DNA of 64,000 bases from contig NZ_JACBZN010000001.1 of the NCBI RefSeq assembly GCF_013408555.1, positions 1,612,001 through 1,676,000 on the forward strand. The letters run 5' to 3'. Source of the DNA: Aeromicrobium tamlense. Lineage in GTDB: Bacteria > Actinomycetota > Actinomycetes > Propionibacteriales > Nocardioidaceae. Positions 58,053 to 61,321 of the stretch are shown here, in pieces. The notes under the pieces are model-generated. The model saw only the letters and a program-made list of their open reading frames with translations. It was not told where the DNA came from and made no database searches. How positions within the stretch are numbered: the first letter of the stretch is position 1; the number at the start of each line of letters is the position of its first letter. The position numbers were made by a program, and so were the translations under genes.

Positions 58053-59054
58053 CTAGTGGCCGCCGCCGACGCGCTCGGGGTACTTCTTGGAGTACCAGAG
58101 GCTGGCCACGGCCGTGATCGTCAGCGTCGCGATGATGACGCCCAGGCTGAGCAGCGTGGGCACCTCGGGCACCGGGACCGGGCCGATGTGGTGCACCGGC
58201 TCGCCGCCGTTGATGAACGGCAGCTCGTTCTCGTGCAGCGCGTGCAGCACCAGCTTGATGCCGATGTAGAACAGCAGGAACGCCAGGCCGTACGACAGGA
58301 ACACGAGGCGCTGCAGCAGGTCGCCCAGCAGGAAGTACAGCTGGCGCAGACCCATCAGTGCGAACACGTTCGCGGTAAAGACGATGTAGGGCTCCTGCGT
58401 GAGCCCGAAGATCGCCGGGATCGAGTCGAGCGCGAACAGGATGTCGGTGGTGCCGAGCGCGATGATGACCAGCGCCATCGGCGTGATCGCACGACGGCCG
58501 TTCTCGCGGACGACCAGCTTCAGGCCGTCCCACGTGTCGCTCAGGTTGAAGCGCTTGCGCGCGAAGCGGACGACGGCGTTCTCGACGTCCTCGTCCTCGT
58601 CGTCGTTCTTGGCCAGCTTGATCGCGGTGTAGATCAGGAAGGCGCCGAAGATGTAGAACACCCACGAGAACTCGTTGATCGCCACGGCGCCGAGCGCGAT
58701 GAAGATGCCGCGGAACACCAGCGCCAGGATGATGCCGACGAGCAGCGCCTCCTGCTGGTACTTCCGCGGGACGGCGAAGCTGCTCATGATGATGATGAAG
58801 ATGAACAGGTTGTCGATCGACAGGCTGTACTCGGTGAGCCAGCCCGCGTAGAACTCGATGCCGTACTGGTGGCCGTGGAACGACCAGACCCAGGCGCCGA
58901 AGGCGACGGCCAGGCCGATGTAGAACGACAGGTAGAGCGCGCACTCCTTGGTGGTGGGCTCGTGCGGCTTGCGGGCGATGACGATGATGTCGAACAGCAA
59001 GATGGCGATGGTCACCCCGATGGTGACACCCCACTCGAGCGTGCTGACGTTCAC
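58053..59054 (-). CDS. TerC family integral membrane protein
   Basis: A 333-aa membrane protein with about eight helices and the TerC signatures EYSLSIDNLFIFIIIMSSF and ALDSIPAIFGLTQEP (acidic residues in the membrane, as in Mn2+ exporters), and an acidic loop KNDDEDEDVENA. TerC/Alx relatives export manganese or help load metal into secreted proteins. The start is GTG 59054 with AGAGGA about 7 nt upstream. The leader holds a probable manganese riboswitch, which fits this role. Confidence 0.92.
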   Translation of the reverse strand: MNVSTLEWGVTIGVTIAILLFDIIVIARKPHEPTTKECALYLSFYIGLAVAFGAWVWSFHGHQYGIEFYAGWLTEYSLSIDNLFIFIIIMSSFAVPRKYQQEALLVGIILALVFRGIFIALGAVAINEFSWVFYIFGAFLIYTAIKLAKNDDEDEDVENAVVRFARKRFNLSDTWDGLKLVVRENGRRAITPMALVIIALGTTDILFALDSIPAIFGLTQEPYIVFTANVFALMGLRQLYFLLGDLLQRLVFLSYGLAFLLFYIGIKLVLHALHENELPFINGGEPVHHIGPVPVPEVPTLLSLGVIIATLTITAVASLWYSKKYPERVGGGH

Positions 59055-59091
59055 AGGCGGTCCTCTGTTCTCTCCGGGTCGGCTACGACTC

Positions 59092-59200
59092 GGAGGTCTC
59101 TTCCACCGGGCTGTGCAGCGAGCCGGTCCGGCGTCCCGGGGTGGTCGACGATGACCCCCGTGCTGACGAGACGCCGGTGATGGGAATACTCCCCTCCGCC
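59092..59200 (-). ncRNA. yybP-ykoY manganese riboswitch (candidate)
   Basis: In the leader of the TerC gene, the minus strand reads GGAGGGGAGTATTCCC at its 5' end and GGTGGAAGAGACCTCC at its 3' end. CGGAGG pairs with CCTCCG as P1, and CCGGCGTC pairs with GACGCCGG as an inner stem. GGGGAGUA and a 3' purine-rich GA-loop are what I recall of the yybP-ykoY family, whose commonest target is TerC/Alx. The 3' P1 strand (CCTCC) could also pair with the GAGG of the ribosome site, so control may act on translation. The 59055-59236 gap holds nothing else I recognise. Confidence 0.75.
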
Positions 59201-59236
59201 GGAACAGTCTCGCAGCACGGTGGTGACAGCGCCAAT

Positions 59237-61321
59237 TCAGGTGCCGGCGCCGAGCATGCCGCGCAGCTCGCGCTTGAGCTCGCCGATCTCGTCGCGCAGG
59301 CGCGCGGCCACCTCGAACTGCAGGTCGGCCGCGGCCTGGTGCATCTGGTCGGACAGCTGGTCGATGAGCGCCGCGAGCTCGCCCGAGGGCAGGTCGGCGA
59401 GGTCCTTGGTGTGCTGGCCCAGCGGCACCGCCGCGCCCTTGCGCTTGTGGTCGCCGGTGGCGGCGAGCAGCGCGCGGGTGTCCTCGTCCTCGCGGGCGAG
59501 CATGTCGGTGATGTCGCCGATCTTCTTGCGCAGCGGCTGCGGGTCGATGCCGTTCGCCGTGTTGTAGGCGACCTGCTTCTCGCGGCGGCGGTTGGTCTCG
59601 TCGATCGCCGAGGCCATCGAGTCGGTGATCCGGTCGGCGTACATGATGACCTGGCCCGACACGTTGCGCGCCGCGCGGCCGATCGTCTGGATGAGCGAGC
59701 GGCCCGACCGCAGGAAGCCCTCCTTGTCGGCGTCGAGGATCGCCACGAGGCTGACCTCGGGCAGGTCGAGGCCCTCGCGCAGGAGGTTGATGCCGACGAG
59801 GACGTCGTACTCCCCCATCCGCAGCTCGCGCAGCAGCTCGACGCGGCGCAGCGTGTCGACCTCGCTGTGGAGGTAGCGGGTGCGGATGCCGGCCTCGAGC
59901 AGGTAGTCGGTGAGGTCCTCGGACATCTTCTTGGTCAGCGTGGTGACCAGGACGCGCTCGTTGCGCTCGACACGGTCGTTGATCTCGCCGATGAGGTCGT
60001 CGATCTGGCCCTTCGTGGGCTTGACGATGACCTCGGGGTCGATCAGGCCGGTGGGGCGGATGACCTGCTCGACGACGTCGCCCTCGACCTTGTTCATCTC
60101 GTAGTCGCCCGGTGTGGCCGAGAGGTAGACGGTCTGGCCGATCCGCTGGAGGAACTCGGGCCACTTCAGCGGCCGGTTGTCCATCGCGCTGGGCAGCCGG
60201 AAGCCGTGCTCGACGAGCGAGCGCTTGCGGCTCATGTCGCCCTCGTACATCGCGCCGATCTGCGGGATCGTCACGTGCGACTCGTCGACGACGAGCACGA
60301 AGTCCTGCGGGAAGTAGTCGAGGAGGCAGTTCGGGGCCGAGCCCGGAGGGCGGCCGTCCATGTGCAGCGAGTAGTTCTCGATGCCGGAGCAGGTGCCGAC
60401 CTGCTCCATCATCTCGAGGTCGTACGTGGTGCGCATGCGCAGGCGCTGGGCCTCGAGCAGCTTGTTCTCGCGCTCGAGCACCTCGAGGCGCTCCTCGAGC
60501 TCGAGCTTGATCCGCTCGATCGCCCGGGCCATCACCTCGGGGCCGGCGGCGTAGTGCGTGGCGGCGCCGACGTAGAGCTCCTGGTCGTCGCTGAGCACCT
60601 CGCCCGTGAGCGGGTGCAGGGTCATGAGGCGCTCGATCTCGTCGCCGAAGAACTCGACCCGCACCGCCATCTCCTGGTAGACGGGGAAGATCTCGACGGT
60701 GTCGCCCTTCACGCGGAACGTGCCGCGGGTGGAGCTGACGTCGTTGCGCACGTACTGCGCCTGGACGAGCGTGCGCAGCAGGTGGTCGCGACCCATCTCG
60801 TCGCCGACCTTGAACCCGATCATGCGGTTCAGGTACTCCTGCGCCGAGCCGAGGCCGTAGATGCACGACACGGTGGCGACCACGATGACGTCGCGCCGCG
60901 TGAGCAGCGACCACGTGGCCGAGTGGCGCAGCCGCTCGACCTCCTCGTTGATCGAGGAGTCCTTCTCGATGTAGGTGTCGCTCTGCGCGATGTACGCCTC
61001 GGGCTGGTAGTAGTCGTAGTACGACACGAAGTACTCGACGGCGTTGTTCGGCAGCAGCTCGCGCAGCTCGTTGGCGAACTGCGCGGCGAGGGTCTTGTTG
61101 GGCAGCATGACGAGCATCGGGCGCTGGAGCTGCTCGGCCAGCCAGGCCGTGGTGGCGGTCTTGCCGGTGCCGGTGGCGCCCATGAGGACGACGTCGTTCG
61201 TCCCGCCCTGGATGCGCTGCGTGATCTCGGCAATCGCGGCGGGCTGGTCGCCGGCGGGCTGGTACTCGGAGACGACCTCGAACGGCGCCACCTGCCGCGT
61301 GAGCTCGGAGACAGGTCTCAT
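59237..61321 (-). CDS. uvrB: excinuclease ABC subunit UvrB
   Basis: A 694-aa UvrB with Walker A GATGTGKT at residues 48-55, the beta-hairpin [15 protein letters not shown]-like VVDESHV, helicase motif VI region QTIGRAARN and a C-terminal UVR domain. It verifies damage and loads UvrC. Start ATG 61321 has TAGGCT 6 nt upstream; no SOS box is seen. Confidence 0.97.

Follow-up and report, generated by a model that had tools for sequence, protein, structure and literature searches.

The window, the whole analysed stretch of 64,000 nucleotides, comes from the 3.37 Mb, single-contig genome of Aeromicrobium tamlense. On its minus strand uvrB is followed by terC, and the leader at 59055-59236 is the entire gap between the two genes: uvrB ends, stop codon included, at 59237, and terC begins with the GTG at 59054-59052. 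The TerC protein scores 381.6 bits against TIGR03718 ("TerC/Alx family metal homeostasis membrane protein"; cut-off 246.4), and the closest TerC in a named genome, that of an Aeromicrobium choanae bin, is 87% identical. TerC proteins are described as thought to export Mn2+ or to load secreted proteins with Mn2+ (PMC10550928). A uvrB match is seen upstream of the riboswitch described below in at least 25 of 147 leaders, the window included, upstream DNA being short at many loci; the uvrB end is at most 115 nt from the aptamer in 22 of those 25. The features, in the direction of transcription, are:

59237..61321, minus strand: uvrB (TIGR00631), upstream neighbour of the terC leader
59206..59211, minus strand: candidate -10 element GAGACT, directly before the aptamer; its position, -12, falls within the TANNNT cluster of other leaders
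59090..59199, minus strand: putative Mn2+ riboswitch aptamer, whole model match (R1 90.7 bits, R2 90.8 bits)
59193..59198, minus strand: switch helix P1.1, 5' strand CGGAGG, paired with 59096-59091 (model and covariation)
59187..59192, minus strand: 5' side of L1, GGAGUA; A59190, invariant in 100/100 rows, is the equivalent of the docking (A-minor) adenosine, a role taken from the description in PMC6754395
59183..59186, minus strand: P1.2, 5' strand UUCC, paired with GGAA at 59104-59101
59170..59177, minus strand: P3, 5' strand CCGGCGUC, paired with GACGCCGG at 59135-59128
59159..59169, minus strand: loop L3, UCGUCAGCACG; A59164 is the predicted Mn2+-contacting adenosine, equivalent of A41/A48 as described in PMC6754395 (CA invariant, 100/100)
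59138..59159, minus strand: P4 hairpin GGGGGUCAUCGUCGACCACCCC (fold and covariation)
59128..59135, minus strand: P3, 3' strand GACGCCGG, paired with the P3 5' strand
59105..59127, minus strand: junction hairpin (third arm) ACCGG...CCGGU, helix 5 of the model, with both-side changes in 5/5 pairs
59101..59104, minus strand: P1.2, 3' strand GGAA, paired with UUCC at 59183..59186
59097..59100, minus strand: 3' side of L1, GAGA (conserved columns)
59091..59096, minus strand: switch helix P1.1, 3' strand CCUCCG, paired with 59193..59198 and common to the alternative hairpin
59072..59095, minus strand: putative alternative (OFF) hairpin CUCCGAGUCG-UAGC-CGACCCGGAG, mutually exclusive with P1.1 (CUCCG/CGGAG pairing)
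59061..59066, minus strand: Shine-Dalgarno-like AGAGGA, 6 nt before GTG, outside the alternative hairpin
58053..59054, minus strand: terC (TerC/Alx family, 333 aa, GTG start; PF03741, TIGR03718)

The original prediction placed a yybP-ykoY (Mn2+) riboswitch in front of terC, and the three hallmarks on which it relied are all present: GGGGAGUA at 59194-59187, the closing helix P1.1, and the 3' purine stretch GGAAGAGACC at 59104-59095. Chance does not account for them, because the aptamer stands upstream of terC in 60 of 80 TerC relatives from named genomes (E 7.6e-12 or better). The relatives that carry it include Aeromicrobium, Mycolicibacterium, Cellulomonas, Corynebacterium, and Thermomicrobiales and Chloroflexia bins. 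It is missing from the upstream DNA examined in the other 20, among them Salinisphaera, Endozoicomonas, Nocardia, three Rhodococcus and three Williamsia loci; one locus, L074, came without upstream DNA. A search of plasmid DNA with the terC leader gave no match.

The standard covariance model does not see this element. No Rfam family reached its gathering score anywhere in the window, and RF00080 on 58950-59400 gave no match even at E 10, let alone at its 45-bit cut-off; the best Rfam matches in the leader region were miRNA families far under their own cut-offs. Absence of an RF00080 hit had been named in advance as grounds for dropping the prediction. That absence was found, but it is put down to the model and not to the class, for the E. 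coli alx leader, which is reported to respond to Mn (PMC9603457), is missed too, being unlisted by RF00080 at E 0.1. By direct cmscan, RF00080 gave one sub-threshold match in 17 loci.

Two covariance models built from the leaders themselves give a different picture. Model R1 was made from 38 leaders, the window among them, and model R2 from 32 leaders (actinobacterial, Chloroflexota and one labelled Acidobacteria) with the window and all sequences of Aeromicrobium, its nearest named relatives, excluded. The window scores 90.7 bits against R1, of whose training set it is part, and 90.8 bits against R2 (E 3.6e-19 in a 102,594-base search). The alx leader, outside the R1 training set, scores 53.1 bits (E 1.8e-10) with R1 and 55.3 bits (E 9.3e-11) with R2. 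Since both the window and alx are absent from R2 training, their R2 matches do not arise by construction, and the homology to alx provides a statistical link to a proven member of the class. The E. coli mntP leader is matched by neither R1 nor R2, and the models therefore fall short of the whole class; against RF00080 it scores 41.6 bits, below that model's own cut-off of 45.

The predicted fold is borne out by paired changes. In the R1 alignment, 93.3% of cells are paired and both-side changes occur in 27 of 29 pairs (shuffle mean 19.2; reached in 0 of 500 shuffles). In 100 further sites aligned with R2, 93.6% of cells are paired and both-side changes occur in 26 of 29 pairs, a count that is weak by itself (shuffle mean 23.1; reached in 3 of 500). 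Two-sided cells in this set number 633 against 194 in shuffles (0/500 reach 633), and the covariation score of 0.617 falls to 0.209 on shuffling and to at most 0.118 with slid partners. These controls outweigh the raw pair counts because both alignments were fitted to the model. P1.1 has six pairs in the window; across the 100 further sites 94.3% of its cells are paired, with both-side changes in 4 of 6 pairs. In P1.2, UUCC/GGAA, UCCC/GGGA and CCCC/GGGG exchange jointly across leaders, and in 10 of 64 rows the helix has one broken pair out of four. The 100 sites came from model-score searches and were drawn from a set of 116 (see below); the own genome's three sites and 13 low-scoring or truncated loci (L194-L206) stand outside this alignment. 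A first sequence set was picked by exact GGGGAGTA plus GAGACC, so that conservation there is partly selected, and the first R1-based alignment also contained two weak matches (L080, E 0.0018; a second one at L041, E 0.33) that are uncounted as elements. The first MAFFT alignment put L3 and the P3 3' strand of the window off by one column, and model-based alignments were used for the pair counts.

It is scarcely credible, in view of these exchanges, that the leader holds no riboswitch but a conserved DNA feature, such as a promoter or the site of a repressor like MntR, or simply a stable hairpin that resembles the aptamer by chance. A promoter-like region does lie just upstream of the aptamer in other leaders, the unconstrained fold is built mainly on an imperfect inverted repeat (59220-59207 with 59172-59158), and the best Rfam matches are to miRNA families. 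Yet compensatory pair changes are found in all helices, and this covariation already contradicts such an explanation, as does the homology to alx; nor is the repeat exceptional, its longest unbroken pairing of 8 being exceeded in 13 of 147 leaders by the same measure.

The promoter-like region itself points to where the transcript would begin. The 60 nt preceding the aptamer were scanned for TANNNT in 132 TerC leaders: 69 matches lie 11-18 nt from the aptamer, and the rest of the stretch has 26. Transcription thus likely starts near the 5' end of the aptamer, a placement suggested by this clustering and in agreement with the start reported for Corynebacterium glutamicum terC (PMC3890552). The candidate -10 element of the window, GAGACT, itself differs from TANNNT, and a sigma-70 promoter scan of the leader region found nothing. 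The inverted repeat, with 14 pairs and one bulge, connects P3/L3 with this presumed -10 region; in a read-through transcript from uvrB the predicted fold is dominated by it, and the aptamer would be broken. As a working fold, the unconstrained minimum-energy structure built on this repeat was rejected; its 5' arm lies upstream of the aptamer, at the inferred promoter.

Homology to alx, covariation, the conservation of the Mn-binding core and the cation exporters that follow related sites all point the same way: the terC leader is almost certainly a yybP-ykoY (Mn2+) riboswitch aptamer on the minus strand, and the prediction of such an element before TerC is upheld. The L1 docking A is identical in 100/100 rows of the 100-site alignment, the GAGA columns on the 3' side of L1 are conserved in 97, 100, 99 and 100 of 100, and the "CA" of L3, mapped from UCA41 and ACA48 of PMC6754395, is again identical in 100/100. 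In the solved members as described there, Mn2+ is contacted by an adenosine of L3, A41 in the L. lactis and A48 in the X. oryzae RNA, and the adenosine that docks is A10 of L1. The model gives the window a junction of three arms without P2, and this three-arm form would be its version of the multi-way junction that places P1-L1 beside P3-L3.

The genes behind related sites form the company expected for Mn2+ sensing. A gene-context set of 116 sites was made up of the 90 phylum-sample matches listed, 25 of the best class-sample matches and the GDT1 copy of the host genome. Searches by tblastn placed TerC behind 72 sites and GDT1 behind 15; 29 were left unassigned, some of them cut off by the end of a contig. 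Pfam on eight first reading frames of the 29 identified two P-type cation ATPases, two Na/Ca exchangers, one further GDT1, and one each of peptidase M50, peptidase M48 and chromate transporter; among the remaining sites, ten more P-type ATPases and three more exchangers were recognized by eye. More unusual company is found at L163, L195 and L204, where the sites precede a site-2-type protease (M50 plus CBS), an HtpX-like M48 protease and a chromate transporter.

The same fold could serve a natural signal other than chiefly Mn2+, such as alkaline pH, Ca2+ or another metal. E. coli alx is reported to be responsive to pH as well (PMC9603457), a streptococcal relative is described as tighter for Ca2+ than for Mn2+ (PMC9495176), and sites in the phylum also stand before Na/Ca exchangers and P-type cation ATPases. 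Such a signal is nevertheless improbable: the Mn-contacting and L1 docking adenosines are invariant in 100/100 rows, and Vibrio parahaemolyticus mneA and terC, both behind a yybP-ykoY riboswitch, are reported to be specifically Mn-induced (PMC13274385).

The host genome has three copies of the aptamer: the one in the window, C1:833422-833513 (62.7 bits) and C1:2239745-2239832 (59.5 bits); the next R1 match has E 0.15. The gene after C1:833422-833513, on the minus strand, encodes a GDT1 divalent cation/proton antiporter (PF01169), and that after C1:2239745-2239832 a second TerC. All three genes are thus of Mn/cation export type, the window copy standing before TerC/Alx (TIGR03718) and its paralogues before TerC and GDT1. 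In the second TerC copy the start, as chosen, is 148 nt behind the aptamer, and a reading frame leading into terC begins at an ATG within the alternative hairpin, a possible upstream start or leader peptide. In the GDT1 copy the P1-strand hairpin is followed by a second strong hairpin containing the Shine-Dalgarno sequence and then by a U run at the ATG, a platform that by eye resembles a terminator or a three-state platform.

How the aptamer would act on terC is suggested by the parts between P1.1 and the start codon. The P1 strand had been expected to pair with the ribosome-binding site. It does pair nearby: the P1.1 3' strand (59095-59091) is complementary to CGGAG at 59076-59072, which ends 17 nt before GTG; the AGGA at 59064-59061 lies outside this helix, and that part of the expectation did not hold. 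The alternative hairpin stops 5 nt before AGAGGA, and its CUCCG/CGGAG pairing is kept in the close relatives L003 and L130. Helices of the P1.1 3' strand were compared across leaders, start codons being assigned for 147 of 168 by a script favouring a strong Shine-Dalgarno sequence. In 88 of 132 TerC leaders, alx being among the 132, the best helix that this strand can form takes in 4 nt or more of the Shine-Dalgarno sequence; the same is true of 0 of 15 GDT1 leaders. Of those 88 helices, 63 have at least 7 unbroken pairs and 21 only 4. Of 116 distinct TerC leaders, 78 can form an alternative helix of at least 7 pairs; in mononucleotide shuffles the share is 8.0%. When the P1.1 and Shine-Dalgarno strands are swapped between leaders, however, 50% still reach at least 7 pairs; the complementarity is therefore partly a common motif, and the case for anti-Shine-Dalgarno covariation is weakened.

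Shine-Dalgarno access was calculated by folding for 122 TerC leaders, a set restricted to those with a Shine-Dalgarno match and excluding long leaders, E. coli alx and the GDT1 leaders. With P1.1 forced, predicted access rose by over 0.2 in 72 of the 122 and fell in 8; mean access was 0.16 free, 0.39 with P1.1 forced and 0.35 with the P1.1 3' strand alone blocked. In free folding P1.1 is nearly absent (mean probability 0.0008 over the 122 leaders), folding programs ignoring both metal and docking. In the window, predicted access was unchanged upon forcing P1.1 (0.34 to 0.35) since AGGA and GTG are bound up in a local hairpin whether or not P1.1 forms, whereas the relatives do shift: L003 from 0.25 to 0.75 and L130 from 0.00 to 0.40.

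These features suggest the following mechanism, modelled on the solved members for the aptamer and on the anatomy of the leader for the platform. Mn2+ would dock L1 onto L3, and the docking would stabilize the switch helix P1.1 (59198-59193 with 59096-59091). When Mn2+ is scarce, the P1.1 3' strand would depart and build the hairpin at 59095-59072, which, ending 5 nt before the Shine-Dalgarno sequence, may hinder ribosome loading. With Mn2+ bound, the OFF hairpin would be prevented, the terC start region freed and TerC made. That the leader is a yybP-ykoY (Mn2+) riboswitch turning terC on at high Mn2+ is given a probability of roughly 0.82. Control at the level of translation in the window copy is a less secure part of the scheme, though still fairly likely; the output step is its weakest link because the alternative hairpin lies just upstream of the Shine-Dalgarno sequence.

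An aptamer of the same kind could act mainly on transcription, through Rho-dependent termination or RNA decay, with ribosome access playing little part. The Shine-Dalgarno sequence of the window does lie outside the alternative hairpin, with its predicted access unchanged, and control of E. coli mntP that depends on both Rho and the riboswitch has been reported (PMC11647493). We consider such an output unlikely here, given that no intrinsic terminator-like site was found in 58900-59500 and that the Shine-Dalgarno coverage in 88 of 132 TerC leaders points to translation.

Unexpectedly, the type of L3 loop goes with the gene behind it. In the 100-site alignment, ACA-type L3 (CGACANNCUG) is found in 14/14 GDT1 leaders and in 0/65 TerC leaders; none of the 11 P-type ATPase (mostly classed by eye), 2 exchanger, 1 M50 and 7 unassigned leaders has it. 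The host genome repeats the pattern, its GDT1 copy being ACA-type and both TerC copies UCA-type. In E. coli, alx is UCA-type and mntP has ACAUACU. Common descent of leader with gene could explain this segregation without functional tuning. A bolder proposal is that Actinobacteria hold a large population of alx-like Mn2+ riboswitches, uncalled by Rfam, in which L3 is matched to the exporter: UCA-type for TerC and P-type ATPases, ACA-type for GDT1. It is speculative and, on present evidence, rather doubtful. If true, two versions of the sensor would work in one cell, differing in Mn2+ set point or in metal selectivity, and TerC and GDT1 would come under staged control. With two loop types that segregate with the gene, a single genome provides a natural experiment on the setting of the metal response by L3.

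Surveys of larger samples show how the two kinds of model differ. Among 197 genomes of the class, at least 131 have R1 matches; RF00080 matches at least five at E 0.001, none above its cut-off. All five are also R1-matched, four at or overlapping the same place and one (G296) elsewhere. Among 296 genomes of the phylum, at least 67 have R1 matches and at least 11 have RF00080 matches at E 0.001, one of them above cut-off. Since 10 of these 11 are without an R1 match, the two models see different populations. All of these genome counts are lower bounds because candidates were pre-filtered, with stricter filters on the large samples. The contrast between 131 and 0 of 197 genomes (R1 versus RF00080 above cut-off) suggests that standard annotation overlooks most alx-like Mn riboswitches in the class, and Mn2+ control of TerC, GDT1 and P-type ATPases may be general there.

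Leaders of this class have been predicted in actinobacteria before, in C. glutamicum (PMC3890552, PMC4046766) and C. pseudotuberculosis (PMC3890534), and yybP-ykoY is mentioned for Corynebacterium and Streptomyces (PMC8164766). One published parallel is the yybP-ykoY leader of C. glutamicum cg2157 (terC), likewise an actinobacterial terC leader. It is reported to have had an Rfam score of 49.13 in 2013, and its transcript was mapped as starting 6 nt within the 5' end that had been predicted (PMC3890552); against RF00080 of Rfam 15, C. glutamicum as a control gave a match at E 10 and none at E 0.001 under stricter filters. The remark in the original prediction that Mn2+ control is rarely shown directly in this group fits: the C. 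glutamicum leader was predicted and its start mapped (PMC3890552), and the open-licence literature, in the parts consulted, yielded no direct Mn2+ test of yybP-ykoY in actinobacteria.

RF00080 (Manganese, yybP-ykoY, release 15) describes the same class of RNA as that of the window, but its structure line leaves the P1.1 part of the GGGGAGUA strand unpaired, unlike the window model. A Cellulomonas relative (L029) scores below its cut-off, with 24.9 bits over 1-177 and 27.2 bits over 12-177. The crystallised Mn2+ riboswitches of L. lactis and X. oryzae share with the window P1.1, L1, P1.2, P3, L3 and the invariant Mn-contacting adenosine; they are described as having four-way junctions (PMC6754395), whereas the window has three arms and a 5-nt linker between P1.2 and P3. 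A three-way junction form is described for a streptococcal member (PMC9495176). The mntP leader of E. coli is of the same Mn riboswitch class as the window but differs in its ACAUACU type of L3. A close known system is E. coli alx, whose yybP-ykoY riboswitch is called the PRE element. Both leaders have the core order GGGGAGUA - UCGUCANNACG - CCGG - GAGACCU, a TerC/Alx-type gene downstream and no P2 arm in the model alignment. The window leader is GC-rich and shorter, its start codon lying 40 nt beyond the last C of GAGACC as against 84 nt in alx, and its expression platform differs. The window copy is thus very probably an additional, alx-like member of a known riboswitch class.
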